DNA of 28,464 nt from a virus. This document shows, one piece after another, positions 2,783 through 18,404 of this stretch. The notes below the pieces were generated by a model. It made no database searches and had not been told where the DNA came from. It saw only the letters and a list, made by a program, of their open reading frames with translations. The translations under genes and the position numbers were made by a program. Within the stretch, counting starts at the first letter, position 1; each line of letters starts with the position of its first letter. The stretch is from positions 1 to 28,464 of IMG/VR virus record IMGVR_UViG_3300018412_000037, one strand, 5' to 3'.

Positions 2783-4332
2783 TACTGGCCCCCCTCACCC
2801 GGCAGTATATCCGGATCCGGCTCGGAGGGATCTGCGCCATCATCATCAAACATCCCCGGCTGCACAATCTCCAGATCCCCATCGATGTTATCCCAACCAG
2901 AGTCCGGGTCGTCTGACAACTGCTGTCGAGCCTCGCTCGGGTCAATGACACTGTTCGCGATGTAGATCTGCGCCTCCTGGGCCTTGTTGAAGCGGATCTC
3001 GCTCTCCTCCTTGGCGCTGGTCTGCCACAGCGACTTGAACTTGAAGGTGATCGCGTCGTCAATCTCGCCCCACTTGCTGAGCTGGATGACTTTCAGCATG
3101 GTGTCCAGTGGGCTGAAATAGTAAGACTGCTGCACCGAGCTGATGTCGTCATAGAAGGAGCGGATCTCCCCCTCGCTGCTCGCGTTCAGGCCAGACGGAC
3201 TGATACCGGTGAGCTTGATTGCTGGGATCTTTGACACCGAGCACATGTGCTCTTGTGACTGGCTTTGCAGGTCGGCTAGGCCAGACAGCGGGGTGTTGAC
3301 TTGAACGATGTCCTCAGTCTCATTGTCCATCACCCCCATACCCAGGTTGCTCTGCATGTTGACGTACATCTCGATCCGGTCGAATACGTCTCCACCCTCG
3401 CCACCATTCAGCACCTGGGCCATATTGGTCTTGAGGAAGGTTCGGGAGAACTTGTCTACCAGGTCACTGACGGATTGCCGGGTTCGCAGCCAGTTTTCCA
3501 CGTAGGGCTGTGCCAGCTGGGACATTGATATACCAGAGAAGTTATATGCCGGCTTGAGCATGTCCGGCAGTGGGCGGGTGATGATGGTCAGCAGGCGCGA
3601 GGCGTGCATTTCCCGCCCCAATACCCACAAGGTGCTGGGCTTATAGAAGTCCGGCGCGGTCGGGTCGAGCGCGTTGTAGGCGCTGGGGCTAGTCCACATC
3701 GGCTCAATGTTGGAGAACCCAGTCAGGCTGCCCTTCTTGATGGTGCGGGGATCCAGTATCAGTGGCACCGACACGTCAGCCCCCTTGATGTTTATCGAGA
3801 TCTGGCCCCGACCAAAGAAGCAGTCATGCTCGGCAGCCTTCTGGATGATCCCCATGACTCCGTAATACTCGCAAGCCTCCTCAAGCTCCTTGATCTTTTC
3901 GGCCATCTCCTTGGCCTTGGTGCGGTCCTTGCTGGTTATCTCTATGCCTTCCCGAGTTAGCTCGGTACTCAAGGTGGAAGCAAAAGCCCTGTACTCCGGA
4001 CGAGTGGCGAGCGCCGCAAGGTTCTGGTATCCGGGGAACGGCTGAATGTTGGCCGCATACAGGCCACCAGCCGCCGAATTGAGAAACTGGTATGTCGGAC
4101 CACAGAGGGAATCCATGGCCACTGCCGGGGTGGTGCCGGCAGGGACAACGCCGGGCATGAGTTGTGGTGGTGCCCACTTGATGGCAGCGTCACTGTCCCG
4201 CCTCTCCATGGACTTCATCACGGCGCGGCGCATGGCGAGCTTGCGGGCCTTCTGCCGCTCCTCGGCGATAGCGGCAGCTGCCGCCTTGATGGCGGCTTGC
4301 TGCTTGGTCTTCTTTCTGTCAAATGGCCACAT
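2782..4332 (-). CDS. Portal protein (DUF1073-type)
   Basis: A 516-residue protein in the portal position between the large terminase and the minor head protein. The start at 4332 has GAGGAG upstream. A basic, alanine-rich N-terminus (residues 1-45) is followed by the core typical of DUF1073 portals, with stretches such as ALATRPEYRAFASTLSTELTREG, YGVMGIIQKAAEHDCFFGRGQI, ILDPRTI, and IPAIKLTGISPSGLNASSEGE near residue 370. The C-terminus is acidic and proline-rich. Portals form the dodecameric ring at one capsid vertex through which DNA is packaged and the tail attaches. The family entry was renamed after anti-CBASS protein Acb1 because some members carry that domain, but I see no paired HxT/HxS catalytic motifs here, so I call a plain portal. 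Confidence 0.85.
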   Translation of the reverse strand: MWPFDRKKTKQQAAIKAAAAAIAEERQKARKLAMRRAVMKSMERRDSDAAIKWAPPQLMPGVVPAGTTPAVAMDSLCGPTYQFLNSAAGGLYAANIQPFPGYQNLAALATRPEYRAFASTLSTELTREGIEITSKDRTKAKEMAEKIKELEEACEYYGVMGIIQKAAEHDCFFGRGQISINIKGADVSVPLILDPRTIKKGSLTGFSNIEPMWTSPSAYNALDPTAPDFYKPSTLWVLGREMHASRLLTIITRPLPDMLKPAYNFSGISMSQLAQPYVENWLRTRQSVSDLVDKFSRTFLKTNMAQVLNGGEGGDVFDRIEMYVNMQSNLGMGVMDNETEDIVQVNTPLSGLADLQSQSQEHMCSVSKIPAIKLTGISPSGLNASSEGEIRSFYDDISSVQQSYYFSPLDTMLKVIQLSKWGEIDDAITFKFKSLWQTSAKEESEIRFNKAQEAQIYIANSVIDPSEARQQLSDDPDSGWDNIDGDLEIVQPGMFDDDGADPSEPDPDILPGEGGQ

Positions 4333-6541: not shown

Positions 6542-6829
6542 TCACTGGCCGTAGTGTAGCAAATCATCCATCTGCTGCGCCACCCGCTTGCGAGCCTCGG
6601 CATCCGCCACGCGATCATTCCAGCGTTGCAAAGCTTCGGCCTGCTCCTTGGCTTCCAGCTCAGCCCTGGTGAAGGGGCGGCACTCCACACCAATCAGCAC
6701 GTTGTGAATTTCGCAGACATCGCCGCCGTGCTGTGCCTGATAGGCTGCGATCTTCTCGTCCTTGTACTTCTGCCAGTGCGGGCCTACGCCAATCACCAGT
6801 ACCACCATCACCGCCAGGATCATGCGCAT
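6542..6829 (-). CDS. Small exported or membrane-anchored hypothetical protein
   Basis: A 95-residue protein with a hydrophobic N-terminus (MRMILAVMVVLVIGVG, residues 1-16), which could be a signal anchor, followed by a charged soluble part. Cys39 and Cys51 flank a short segment (CEIHNVLIGVEC) and could form a disulfide in the periplasm. The C-terminal half (about 53-92) is rich in Glu, Ala, Gln and Arg and looks like a long helix. The start has GAGGGGTGA upstream and lies 3 bases after the stop of the preceding membrane gene. The topology recalls Rz-like spanins, but it sits far from the lysis genes and no Rz1 partner is nested in it, so I leave the function open. Confidence 0.65.
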   Translation of the reverse strand: MRMILAVMVVLVIGVGPHWQKYKDEKIAAYQAQHGGDVCEIHNVLIGVECRPFTRAELEAKEQAEALQRWNDRVADAEARKRVAQQMDDLLHYGQ

Positions 6830-7966: not shown

Positions 7967-8284
7967 CTACAGGGCAGCCTTGATGTCGTCGATTGCCTTG
8001 CTTATGGCGGCAAGCTCATCTTCATTGAAGGTCAGGTGCTCTTTCCAGTTGCCATAGTAGCGCCCGATCCTGCGATGGACCCTAGACAGTTTTACTTGGC
8101 TGACCCCGGCAACGTCGCAGATCGCAGATACTCGAATGCCGCAATCTATCGCCGCGCGCACCCGATCCATGACTGGCTCAACGCGCTTAGCATCCTCCTC
8201 CATTCTCTCCTTGTAGAAATTTCCGGTTCCAGCAGGGCGACCTGGGCGGCGCTTAACCTTCTGTGCTTGGGTGTTTTGGCTCAT
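7967..8284 (-). CDS. DNA-binding protein with AT-hook-like N-terminus and helix-turn-helix
   Basis: A 105-residue protein. I chose the ATG at 8284 because AAGGGG lies upstream and the longer frame would start within the promoter. Residues 10-19 (KVKRRPGRPA) match an AT-hook core (basic residues around Gly-Arg-Pro). The middle (about 43-72) reads IDCGIRVSAICDVAGVSQVKLSRVHRRIG, a convincing helix-turn-helix. The C-terminus is acidic and helical. It is the first gene behind the promoter at 8313-8341 and could regulate that promoter or the small genes that follow. Family name not recognised. Confidence 0.65.
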   Translation of the reverse strand: MSQNTQAQKVKRRPGRPAGTGNFYKERMEEDAKRVEPVMDRVRAAIDCGIRVSAICDVAGVSQVKLSRVHRRIGRYYGNWKEHLTFNEDELAAISKAIDDIKAAL

Positions 8285-8990: not shown

Positions 8991-9711
8991 CTTTCTTATC
9001 CTGCTGGATATCCATGCTGGCGACCATAGAGCCAAGGTCTAGGAATGTGAAATATCCACCATCATTTGGCCTCCACCCCATAGTGTCTATGTGAATTACA
9101 TTCCATAGAGCAACTGGCTTCCTCAGTGGTGTGTGGCCAACTACCAGAGCGCGAATCCCATCAACACCCGACTGATCGCTGGTCTCTATGCGCTTGCGAG
9201 ACCACATGCACGCATTCATAACTAGCTTTAAGTCTTTGCCACTTGAGTGTCCAGATAATGCCTGCCGAAGTTGATCCCATGAAGGGTATGGGCAATCTGC
9301 ATGAACAAGACCAACCAATCCCTCATCAGTATCAATCTCGATAGCAACTGGAAGATCCCTAAATCTTGCCGCAAAATCACCCTTCTCAAAATCAGTAAGA
9401 GATGAAAACCACACTCCTCCATTTTGAATCCAGTTTCCAATATCGCACGTGTCATGACGACACACGTAATCATCGTGATTGCCACGCACTGGATGGAACC
9501 ACGGCTTATCCAGCCAGGCCAGCACCTGCTCACACTCCGGGCCACGGTCAACCAAGTCCCCCACAGAGAACAGCCGATCGCATTCAGGGTTGAATCCAAG
9601 GCGGTCCAATGCTTCCTGCAGCCTGGTGAAATGGCCATGGATATCTCCAACGGCAAAATCACGGCCAGCAGTATTGATTGTGAAGTGCTTTATCATCTTT
9701 AAATTATTCAT
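8980..9711 (-). CDS. ninI: Serine/threonine protein phosphatase (NinI-like)
   Basis: A 243-residue metallophosphatase of the PPP family, as in lambda NinI (PP-lambda). All active-site motifs are present: GDIHG (22-26), GDLVDRG (51-57), GNHD (77-80), a metal-binding His in LVHADCPYP (His137) and VGHTPL (191-196, His193). These residues hold two metal ions, usually Mn2+, and remove phosphate from Ser/Thr (and sometimes Tyr or His). Length is close to the lambda enzyme, slightly longer. The start at 9711 overlaps the antirepressor gene by 8 bases; an internal ATG six codons in is a possible alternative. Its phage target is unknown. Confidence 0.92.
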   Translation of the reverse strand: MNNLKMIKHFTINTAGRDFAVGDIHGHFTRLQEALDRLGFNPECDRLFSVGDLVDRGPECEQVLAWLDKPWFHPVRGNHDDYVCRHDTCDIGNWIQNGGVWFSSLTDFEKGDFAARFRDLPVAIEIDTDEGLVGLVHADCPYPSWDQLRQALSGHSSGKDLKLVMNACMWSRKRIETSDQSGVDGIRALVVGHTPLRKPVALWNVIHIDTMGWRPNDGGYFTFLDLGSMVASMDIQQDKKDGE

Positions 9712-10423
9712 GATCGCTACCCATCAGTTTCTTTGCTTCATGCTTGGCCAGCTCACCAGCCATCCACTCAACTCCTTTCGGTGTGAACTTGGCCTGTGAG
9801 TAGGCGTGTGAGCTATCACCATGCTCTGCCATTCCAGCCTTAACCACGAACCGACCGGCGTCGATGTGATCGGCGTACGGGGGCATAACCCCAGCCAGCC
9901 GATACATAACCTTGTTGCCGATCAAGAACTCGCGCAGATCTGTCTCTTTTACCTTGAGCAGCTTTGCTACTTGGCGGAATCCGAGATTGCCGGTTGACTC
10001 GACATAGCGATCTACGAACTCAGCCTTTGGCGCGGCAATGGCAAGTTGCGCCTGTGATTGCTCAAGCTCCATTGCCAGGCGGCCTGCCTCAAGCAGTGCG
10101 GCGGCGTAGGTTTGCGGCACTTGTGGCTTTTGCATGGCCTTCAGCTTATCCAGAACATTGCGGCGCACGGACTTTGACTCCCTCATCCCAACCAGCATCA
10201 TCTGGTCAAGCGTAAGATCGTAATATGCGCTCTCAGTTTGGTTGCTATTTAACCGGAATTTTTTTCCGGTTTCGTCCAAGTCCAGCTCATCCTGAACCTT
10301 TAGCAGAAACTTGCGTGGCTCATGTACTGACTCACCTGCATTTGAGCGCTCATTGTTAACAATCTCAAGCAACTCTAGGCTGCTCATGGTCATTTCGGAT
10401 GACATTGCGATCAGGTTATTCAT
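9704..10423 (-). CDS. Rha/KilAC-type phage antirepressor
   Basis: A 239-residue protein with two domains. The N-terminal half (about 12-100) carries the Rha-like pattern SAYYDLTLDQMMLVGMRESKSVRRNVLDKLKAMQ. The C-terminal half (about 128-230) is the KilAC/ANT domain: APKAEFVDRYVES..., GFRQVAKLLKVKETDLREFLI, then RFVVKAGM...SQAKFTPKGVEWM. Such proteins are antirepressors or lytic-phase regulators in phages such as P22 and phi80. Start at 10423 chosen for AGGGG upstream; the frame opens slightly earlier. No phage repressor or integrase is visible in the window, so its partner is either outside, is the XRE protein at 15114, or is a host or prophage protein. Confidence 0.85.
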   Translation of the reverse strand: MNNLIAMSSEMTMSSLELLEIVNNERSNAGESVHEPRKFLLKVQDELDLDETGKKFRLNSNQTESAYYDLTLDQMMLVGMRESKSVRRNVLDKLKAMQKPQVPQTYAAALLEAGRLAMELEQSQAQLAIAAPKAEFVDRYVESTGNLGFRQVAKLLKVKETDLREFLIGNKVMYRLAGVMPPYADHIDAGRFVVKAGMAEHGDSSHAYSQAKFTPKGVEWMAGELAKHEAKKLMGSDHE

Positions 10424-10670
10424 AGCTAACCCCTGCATCATCTAGGCTATCAATAATATTCAACCGATAACTATCCTGCTCTTCGTTGCAGCATCGCGGC
10501 ATTTGAACGCACAGCGTGGCGCGTGATTCCTGCCAAGACTCCCACGCAAGCTGGACTCTAGGGTGGCCGTAAGCTCCTTCAATAATGATTCCGCAGTTTG
10601 TTTCAGCTGGTTTAAGCGTGTAACCGCGCTTGCAGCACCAAGCCTCAAACTCTTCCCGCATCTTGTCCAT
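10416..10670 (-). CDS. Phage hypothetical protein with W-x2-W-x2-SR motif
   Basis: An 84-residue protein. The ATG at 10670 has GGAG at the right distance, and the reading frame continues upstream only through a terminator hairpin, so the longer version is unlikely. The sequence MREEFEAWCCKRGYTL...YGHPRVQLAWESWQESRATLCVQMP is the pattern seen in many short phage proteins in which an N-terminal 'FExW' helix is followed by 'xxWxxWxxSR'. Function unknown. Its 3' end overlaps the antirepressor gene by 8 bases. Its own expression may be set by the leader hairpins at 10684-10782. Confidence 0.7.
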   Translation of the reverse strand: MDKMREEFEAWCCKRGYTLKPAETNCGIIIEGAYGHPRVQLAWESWQESRATLCVQMPRCCNEEQDSYRLNIIDSLDDAGVSYE

Positions 10671-10683
10671 GTAAATCTCCAGA

Positions 10684-10731
10684 AATAAAAAACCCCACAA
10701 GTGGCTGGTGCAAGCAGCCAATTGCGGGGTT
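10684..10731 (-). terminator. Strong leader terminator or attenuator
   Basis: On the minus strand a long hairpin is formed by AACCCCGCAA...GGCTG (10731 downward) and CAGCC...TTGTGGGGTT, with a 7-base loop at 10708-10714, a single mismatch and one G-U pair. It is followed by TTTTTTATTT (10690-10681). The ribosome site of the gene at 10670 begins right behind it. It lies between two genes of one operon, so it would lower expression of the antirepressor and everything downstream unless overcome. Confidence 0.8.
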
Positions 10732-10742
10732 AGGTTTTGCAA

Positions 10743-10782
10743 CCTTTGGTCTGTATCCATCTTGCACATGGCAGACCAAAGG
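10743..10782 (-). repeat. Perfect 11-base inverted repeat in the leader
   Basis: CCTTTGGTCTG (10743-10753) and CAGACCAAAGG (10772-10782) are exact reverse complements separated by 18 bases. It sits just upstream of the terminator hairpin on the leftward transcript and just downstream of the candidate promoter. It could be an operator or a first RNA stem of a two-hairpin regulatory leader. Confidence 0.6.
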
Positions 10783-10794
10783 CAACTGGTATGA

Positions 10795-14974: not shown

Positions 14975-15117
14975 CTCTCCTGCCCTCCGTGCCAGCTCTC
15001 ATAGGCATCAGCAACAACGCTCGCGCACCCATCACAAACGCATACACCGTAACAGCCTAGATTTTTTATTATCTCCTCATCGTTAAGCGGGTTGCTGCAC
15101 AGCTTGCACTCGCTCAT
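14932..15117 (-). CDS. Small putative zinc-binding protein
   Basis: A 61-residue protein with Cys4-x2-Cys7 near the start and a second cluster (CYGVCVCDGC, residues 22-31), enough ligands for a zinc ribbon. The C-terminal half (VVADAYESWHGGQERWGRDQQ) is polar. GGAGGATG precedes the ATG, and the ATGA overlap with the XRE gene marks it as the second gene of the leftward early operon. Small cysteine-rich proteins of this kind are frequent in early phage operons and often bind DNA or host RNA polymerase; no specific function can be given here. Confidence 0.65.
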   Translation of the reverse strand: MSECKLCSNPLNDEEIIKNLGCYGVCVCDGCASVVADAYESWHGGQERWGRDQQNSLLAQA

Positions 15118-15320
15118 TTTGCATCCTCCCCCAGCGCCACCAGCTCGGACACCTTCATGCCCAGGGCGTCAGCGGCTCGCTTCATTGTGTCGGTTGTTGC
15201 GCTACTTGCTCTGCACATTGAATAGACAGTCTCAACAGACAAGCCCATGCAATCTGCCAGTTCTTTTTTTGTTTTTTCCTTCATTGCTAGCGCTACCAGC
15301 AAGGCTTTACCAGTGTTCAT
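15114..15320 (-). CDS. XRE-family helix-turn-helix regulator (Cro/CI-like position)
   Basis: A 68-residue protein with a helix-turn-helix: KKELADCMGLSVETVYSMCRASSATTDTMKRAADALGMKVSELVAL (residues 18-63). The layout (turn at MGLS, recognition helix VETVYSMCR, final 'L-G-x-x-x-x-E-L') is that of XRE/Cro-type regulators. The gene is the first after the leftward early promoter and has a strong GGAGGGG site. It is too short for a CI-type repressor with a cleavage domain, so it could be a Cro-like protein acting on the divergent promoters at 15451-15541. Confidence 0.8.
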   Translation of the reverse strand: MNTGKALLVALAMKEKTKKELADCMGLSVETVYSMCRASSATTDTMKRAADALGMKVSELVALGEDAK

Positions 15321-15352
15321 TACTTCCCCTCCAATGTGTTGTCATCATAAAA

Positions 15353-15444
15353 GGCCGACCATCCGGCACTTTAGGATGAGGCCCCGCAGAGCCCCACATT
15401 TACTATCCATATTGTTAAAGAGCGCGGCACGTTCGCCGTTGATG
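15353..15444 (-). promoter_or_regulatory. Leftward leader with boxA and hairpin (nut-like)
   Basis: On the minus strand the transcript would begin at about 15444 with CATCAACGGC, reach GCTCTTTAACAAT (15423-15411), which matches the rRNA antiterminator boxA core, and then form a hairpin (GGCC-x-CATCC ... GGATG-x3-GGCC, 15383-15353). The first 34 bases nearly repeat those of the rightward leader. It lies between the promoter and the XRE gene. No protein-coding frame is present. Confidence 0.7.
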
Positions 15445-15450
15445 TAGCCA

Positions 15451-15479
15451 ACTTTAATGATGACGACTGTCACTGTCAA
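15451..15479 (-). promoter_or_regulatory. Leftward early promoter (pL-like)
   Basis: On the minus strand a consensus TTGACA (15479-15474) is followed after 17 bases by TAAAGT (15456-15451). It would drive the XRE, replication and nin-like genes. The spacer contains TGACAGTGACAGTCGTCA, with repeated TGAC/GTCA half-sites that could be operators. Confidence 0.8.
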
Positions 15480-15513
15480 TGGGTTTTTTATCACAAAAAC
15501 CTTTAATATGTTC

Positions 15514-15541
15514 TTGACCTCCCCCTCCATCATGCTAAGAT
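15514..15541 (+). promoter_or_regulatory. Rightward early promoter (pR-like)
   Basis: TTGACC (15514-15519) and TAAGAT (15536-15541) are separated by 16 bases. The start would be near 15548, exactly where the shared leader sequence CATCAACGGC begins. It would drive the RecT-exonuclease-SSB operon. Confidence 0.7.
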
Positions 15542-15547
15542 TCATCC

Positions 15548-15645
15548 CATCAACGGCAAGCGCCGAGCTCTTTAACAATCAGGTGAATAGGTAAGGTGGG
15601 CAAGTGCCACCATTTACCCCACAGGGTCGGGATCCGGTCTTGTGG
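15548..15645 (+). promoter_or_regulatory. Rightward leader with boxA and two hairpins (nut/put-like)
   Basis: The leader starts with CATCAACGGC (15548), reaches boxA GCTCTTTAACAAT (15567-15579), then forms a hairpin GGTAAGGTGG/CCACC-AT-TTACC (15590-15618, 7-base loop) and a second weaker one CCACA...TGTGG (15619-15645). A boxA followed by structured RNA at the head of an early operon is the arrangement of lambda nut sites, and two adjacent stems recall HK022 put sites. The first gene starts at 15671. Confidence 0.7.
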
Positions 15646-15670
15646 AGTGAATAACAAACGGGAGATAAGC

Positions 15671-15790
15671 ATGAAAGACTACGTTAACGCACCTAAGCCG
15701 ACACAGGCTCCGTGGTGGATGGCGCACAGCCAGGAGATTAAGTTCTGGTCGCTGATTGCGACGATGATTCTTGTTGGGGGTTTGGCATGA
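15671..15790 (+). CDS. 39-residue single-span membrane peptide
   Basis: The first gene of the rightward early operon: MKDYVNAPKPTQAPWWMAHS followed by QEIKFWSLIATMILVGGLA. A polar, proline-rich N-terminus is followed by one hydrophobic segment at the C-terminus (about 24-39). GGGAGATAAGC precedes the ATG at 15671, and the stop overlaps the next start (ATGA). The frame opens earlier at 15596, but that would start inside the leader hairpin. No family recognised. Early tail-anchored peptides of this kind sometimes alter host membrane functions or block superinfection, but nothing here specifies it. Confidence 0.65.
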   Translation: MKDYVNAPKPTQAPWWMAHSQEIKFWSLIATMILVGGLA

Positions 15791-18319: not shown

Positions 18320-18404
18320 GGCTCGCGGTGTTCAACCGGTAGCCATGCAACAGAACGCAAAATAATACACAAAGCGCCTTGCTATTTATTGCGGGGCGTT
18401 TTAC
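18320..18404 (+). terminator. Intergenic hairpins, likely terminator behind ssb
   Basis: Between ssb and the next gene there are two hairpins. The first is GGCT..CGGT-N5-ACCG..AGCC (18320-18344). The second is AAAGCGCC...GGCGTTTT (18371-18402), with four T residues at its end. The second resembles a moderate rho-independent terminator and may lower expression of the genes that follow, unless antitermination from the boxA leader is active. No gene is seen in 18295-18437. Confidence 0.5.

Follow-up and report, generated by a model that had tools for sequence, protein, structure and literature searches.

The divergent early region and its two leaders

The window analysed here, the whole IMG/VR record IMGVR_UViG_3300018412_000037 with its 28,464 bases, is related to the Aeromonas phages 4_4512, vB_AsaM-56 (hereafter 56), and 2_D05. 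Two promoters pointing apart are located within positions 15320-15671. First in the left arm is the gene of a lone Cro-like HTH regulator (15114..15320, minus strand), followed by an HNH gene, replication genes, and NinB, and the right arm carries RecT, an exonuclease, SSB, and Dam. The early region combines this lone regulator with an antirepressor-type gene (9704-10441). A CI-like repressor was not noticed in the interval between the two promoters, either in the window or in the related phages that were read. The annotation of 2_D05 shows two tandem copies of a ~2.7-kb block that contains NinG and a number of small genes (L006, 407-5387), the second methylase copy being short.

The leftward promoter is sigma-70-like (TTGACA-17-TAAAGT; 15451..15479, minus strand), as is the rightward one (TTGACC-16-TAAGAT with TG before the -10; 15514..15541, plus strand), which is conserved in 56, 2_D05, 4_4512, L014, and L019. 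Overall, the divergent-promoter region of the window is not enriched in promoter-like sites, and the start sites of both early transcripts are predictions. The initial annotation had described two divergent early promoters, each with a matching leader right at its predicted start, and this was confirmed by a left leader of 34 nt (CATCAACGGCGAACGTGCCGCGCTCTTTAACAAT; 15444-15411, minus strand) and a right leader of 32 nt (CATCAACGGCAAGCGCCGAGCTCTTTAACAAT; 15548-15579, plus strand), matching each other in blastn with 85% identity (E 4.6e-5).

Each predicted transcript opens with CATCAACGGC, present at 15435..15444 on the minus strand (also in 4_4512 and L019) and at 15548..15557 on the plus strand (in all near relatives). 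This motif leads into a CGGC..GCCG hairpin standing in place of the rRNA boxB, with the form CGGC-GAACGT-GCCG on the left (15425..15438, minus strand) and CGGC-AAGC-GCCG on the right (15554..15565, plus strand), and then into the boxA GCTCTTTAACAAT, followed by ATGGAT on the left (15411..15423, minus strand) and by CAGGT on the right (15567..15579, plus strand). Both copies fit exactly the gamma-proteobacterial consensus GYTCTTTAANA (PMC5725501). No other match to GCTCTTTAACAAT occurs in the window, even when two mismatches are allowed; shuffled windows held on average 0.48 matches with up to two mismatches, and 9 of 100 shuffles reached two or more. The assignment of the shared leader end to an rRNA-type boxA was thereby substantiated, with two exact paired copies and no others in the window.

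The first ATG follows 90 nt (left) and 91 nt (right) after the end of boxA. Folding confirmed hairpins after boxA on both sides, as had been proposed, but the whole leaders fold only modestly more stably than shuffles (z -1.7 to -2.2). Left hairpin 1 (GGGGCTC-TGCG-GGGCCTC; 15379..15394, minus strand) recurs in 4_4512 and L019, where the changes are of the wobble type, and left hairpin 2 (15343..15378, minus strand) is kept in position with diverged sequence. On the right, hairpin 1 (GGTGGGCAAGTGCCACC; 15595..15611, plus strand) is followed directly by hairpin 2 (15612..15652, plus strand). The first downstream hairpins of the two sides differ in stem and loop (TGCG versus AAGT) and start at least ~15 nt past boxA.

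Conservation of the leader elements among relatives

Judged from the compared sequences, the leader is built of layers of different age: CATCRA appears as the most widespread layer, the hairpin is common to the nearer relatives, and boxA is patchy. In most Vibrio, Pseudomonas, and Shewanella phages with a related regulator, at least one of the two promoters has CATCRA where its transcript is predicted to start, as a rule with neither hairpin nor boxA; the motif is absent in HU1 and D65. The HTH protein of the window does not align pairwise with that of L298, and the two are linked via intermediates, e.g., phage AF. The right leaders of 56, 2_D05, 4_4512, L014, and L019 have the right promoter of the window, then CATCAACGGC-AGG-GCCG and a ribosome-binding site, and none of them contains boxA. 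Vibrio phage 1.158.O and related contigs read CATCAACGGC-ACAGA-GCCG, and the distant contig L028 reads CATCAACGGC-ATGTC-GCCG. The shared leader sequence described at first stands, but CATCAACGGC is a feature separate from the boxA leader, since relatives carry it without boxA.

These distributions bear on the reading that the shared start is a DNA-level feature, i.e., an operator of the Cro-like protein or a favoured initial transcribed sequence, combined with a stabilising 5' hairpin and a boxA of little consequence. The frequency of CATCRA among phages with a related regulator, usually lacking boxA, and the several close relatives without boxA speak for it. However, across the nearer relatives the stem is invariant and the loop ranges from 3 to 6 nt, which suits an RNA hairpin better than an operator dyad of fixed spacing; CGGC..GCCG as an operator was rejected on this variable arm spacing. 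As the stem never varies, covariation support for the hairpin is absent. A DNA-level feature furthermore leaves unexplained the two exact boxA copies, the left-leader conservation, the extended element in Klebsiella T7-like leaders, and the boxA in phage AF, and we consider it rather unlikely.

The boxA itself occurs on both sides in the window, only on the left in 4_4512 and L019, and only on the right in Pseudomonas phage AF, whereas 56, 2_D05, and L014 lack it in both leaders while retaining the operons and equivalent terminators. Phage 4_4512 and contig L019 retain the whole left block, with one change in the boxA of L019 (GCTCTTTAGCAAT). Between window and 4_4512, identity on the left amounts to 43% in the promoter, 94% in hairpin plus boxA, 84% in the linker and hairpin 1, 50% beyond hairpin 1, and 63% over the first part of the HTH gene. 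On the right, a segment of ~89 nt hosting boxA and both downstream hairpins (15566..15654, ends approximate, plus strand) is missing from 4_4512, the flanks on both sides of it aligning to this phage. The AF regulator is 41.5% identical to that of the window, and GTTCTTTAACAAC lies in a long right leader, which we regard as an independent occurrence of boxA.

Among the relatives, only the window and the near-identical contig L007 carry boxA on both sides; divergent boxA leaders with separations of 406 and 581 bases also occur in L176, an unrelated contig. The left boxA is conserved in some of the relatives. Lack of boxA conservation in relatives, named in the initial annotation as an argument against its own proposal, is found in 56, 2_D05, and L014 but not in 4_4512 and L019. 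This conservation is based on three distinct left leaders, few sequences of the Aeromonas phage group carrying boxA. No pair of exact boxA copies pointing apart at the window's spacing was found when IMG/VR was scanned, and a scan by the leader pattern gave a near-identical contig as its only match. The genome contigs matching hairpin plus boxA belong to unrelated bacteria, and these matches were considered fortuitous; those in L008 and L009 lie inside ORFs, and L010 and L011 were judged by sequence alone. Searches for leader homologues in plasmids and for an Rfam match to the leaders were negative.

Both operons contain internal terminators, as the initial annotation had stated: a strong intrinsic one inside the left operon before the KilAC/ANT gene (10684..10731, minus strand; stretch z -5.5, stem-loop then TTTTTTATTT) and a weaker terminator-like hairpin after SSB (18371..18402, plus strand), the latter with the same sequence in 56. 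That antitermination would have to pass them, as was assumed there, does not follow. Equivalents are present in the boxA-less phages 56 and 2_D05, so that boxA is not obligatory for passing these sites and they are not the sole reason for its presence; the idea that it exists to pass them was rejected. Just upstream of a small gene and the KilAC/ANT antirepressor gene, a second strong hairpin precedes the left intrinsic terminator (10684-10790, minus strand). This arrangement is kept with different sequence in 56 (L005, ~6650-6760) and 2_D05 (L006, ~8000-8145), which suggests a regulated attenuator.

Comparison with rRNA, lambda, and HK022 antitermination

The layout of the leaders had been likened to lambda nut or HK022 put sites. 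This has to be corrected to the layout of rRNA operons with hairpin, boxA, and NTGGA, the lambda nut site being boxA followed by boxB. The main target of rRNA-type complexes is Rho-dependent termination. Bacterial rRNA antiterminators (with NusA, NusB, S10, NusG, SuhB, and S4) are arranged boxB-boxA-boxC, the reverse of lambda nut (PMC6614801), and boxA is necessary and sufficient to recruit the factors (PMC10250234). With SuhB, the rRNA-type complex delays Rho, and intrinsic termination is also lowered in vitro (PMC6614801). In the Salmonella rRNA operon, the 16S leader consists of a hairpin and then GCTCTTTAACAATTTATC, and the 16S-23S spacer of a hairpin and then GCTCTTTAAAAATCTGGATC. The left leader of the window, a hairpin and then GCTCTTTAACAATATGGATAG, resembles the spacer form of this Salmonella operon, the rRNA operon used for comparison.

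Shared with the rRNA antiterminator are the exact boxA, the hairpin directly upstream of it, the downstream ATNTGGA as in the 16S-23S spacer, and the absence of an evident phage protein. In contrast to it, the window leaders drive protein-coding early operons and run on into further hairpins, and their boxC is only approximate. Of boxC (UCUGUGUGGG), 4_4512 and L019 have the exact core GTGTGGG, to which the window shows one mismatch in the left leader and two in the right; as a general feature of phage leaders, boxC was rejected for lack of enrichment.

A lambda-like nut site would consist of boxA, a following boxB-like hairpin, and an unrecognised phage RNA-binding protein. As with nutL/nutR and N, paired boxA leaders sit on two divergent early operons and hairpins lie downstream of boxA in both. 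N proteins are short and quick to diverge, so that one could be missed. The early proteins scanned gave no match to an N family, bearing out the reported absence of an N-like protein, and contained only weak arginine-rich stretches, none in a convincing small early protein. Unlike in lambda, boxA is of the rRNA type and the hairpin common to both leaders sits before it; the downstream ones are dissimilar between the sides and begin at a distance from boxA. We consider this reading unlikely.

In HK022, put acts at the two early promoters, with putL and putR similar in sequence; each comprises two stem-loops of ~70 nt, boxA not being mentioned in the put paper, and acts directly on the zinc-binding domain of beta-prime, independently of Nus factors (PMC9378689). 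The window shares leaders on both early operons, two hairpins in each near the promoter, and apparently no trans-acting phage protein, so that two hairpins modifying the polymerase directly, with boxA secondary, would account for the layout without any protein. Yet left and right hairpins are not alike, as opposed to putL and putR (PMC9378689), the conserved part here is a boxA, and an Rfam match is missing, which makes a put-like RNA very unlikely.

Binding of Nus factors for another purpose has a precedent in suhB of E. coli and a Citrobacter toxin gene, both repressed by the Nus complex via a boxA near the start codon (PMC5725501). As in the window, these are non-rRNA boxA sites in a 5' UTR, and the copies in the window could conceivably repress or tune their first genes or regulate the leader RNA. 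The published sites were sought within 50 nt of the start codon, whereas the boxA copies of the window end ~90 nt upstream in long leaders; the long operons and the position at the 5' end also fit antitermination better. Such a function is improbable here.

We therefore favour the reading that both leaders are probably host-only antitermination signals of the rRNA type (NusB/S10/SuhB). It builds on the elements themselves, their position, their conservation pattern, the match to host rRNA, and the recurrence in many phages, all directly observed; the boxA-less relatives, conservation over three leaders, the action of rRNA-type complexes chiefly on termination by Rho, and the inexact boxC of the window count against it. 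Nus binding, antitermination, and Rho as its main target are what we infer for both arms. Once RNA polymerase leaves either promoter, hairpin and boxA would emerge within ~35 nt, boxA would be bound by host NusB-S10 (NusE), and NusA, NusG, and SuhB would join. The bound polymerase would thereby turn into a processive, Rho-resistant form as on rRNA operons, allowing transcription of the untranslated leaders and the long early operons in both directions without a phage N protein. Within the Aeromonas group, the leaders that carry boxA are longer, structured, and untranslated, a setting in which shielding the transcript from Rho would presumably be most useful.

A wider class of phage boxA leaders

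A boxA at the very 5' end had been regarded as a peculiarity of this region; it turned out to be typical of a widespread class of phage leaders. Viral contigs were surveyed for a -35, a -10, and GCTCTTTAACA within 35 nt, a pattern whose sample includes chance matches. It was present in at least 119 viral stretches, and a control 11-mer of identical dinucleotide content gave 42. Among the matches listed, with duplicates removed, the next base after boxA is A in 90 of 107 cases (control 17 of 33). The 28-nt stretch upstream of boxA has a folding energy of -4 kcal/mol or below in 56% of the matches listed versus 21% of shuffles (control 9% versus 12%). A purine occupies the fourth position after GCTCTTTAACAA in 70 of 75 cases and NTGGA follows boxA 12 times versus ~1 in shuffles, both again among the matches listed. 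None of these four properties was part of the search pattern.

One member of the class is the early leader of Przondovirus (Klebsiella T7-like phages): 322 records match the 117-nt leader, and in K11 it is annotated with a host RNA polymerase promoter. Across ten divergent Przondovirus leaders, selected by whole-leader homology, boxA and ATGGATT are invariant, and the interval between promoter and boxA varies with indels. Further members are Vectrevirus with several copies, Pseudomonas phage Njord and its relatives, and leaders of phage tRNA clusters. As in the window, the early host-polymerase leaders of Przondovirus and the SP6-like Vectrevirus have a promoter followed by GCTCTTTAACAAT, and GCTCTTTAACAATATGGAT is common to Przondovirus and the left leader of the window. 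In contrast to the window, their early regions are one-directional and their later genes are served by an own polymerase.

The SP6-like Escherichia phage K1E (L062) has four CTCTTTAACAAT boxA copies in its early region (minus strand, near 4018, 3259, 3101, and 2521), several of them between small genes. In L129 and L149, boxA lies ~23 nt before a RelE/ParE-type-looking toxin gene, like the Citrobacter toxin boxA (PMC5725501). Promoter plus boxA leaders also precede phage tRNA clusters in L086, L090, L093, L094, L121, and L163, as in stable-RNA operons. Apart from nut systems, phage leaders with an rRNA-type boxA were not found described in the open-access literature; most subscription papers lay outside this search, so that the novelty of these leaders is uncertain.

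On this basis, we tentatively propose that several kinds of phages (T7-like, SP6-like, lambda-like, and others) may repeatedly have adopted the hairpin-boxA-NTGGA element of their hosts as N-free antitermination at the 5' end of host-polymerase transcripts, with the window phage using it on both early arms in place of nutL/nutR. If true, a lambda-like early region would gain processive antitermination from the host rRNA machinery alone, without N. It would also account for the escape from Rho of early transcripts made by the host polymerase in many phages, provide boxA with a clear role beyond rRNA operons, and lead to the prediction that phages with boxA leaders are restricted by nusB or suhB mutants.
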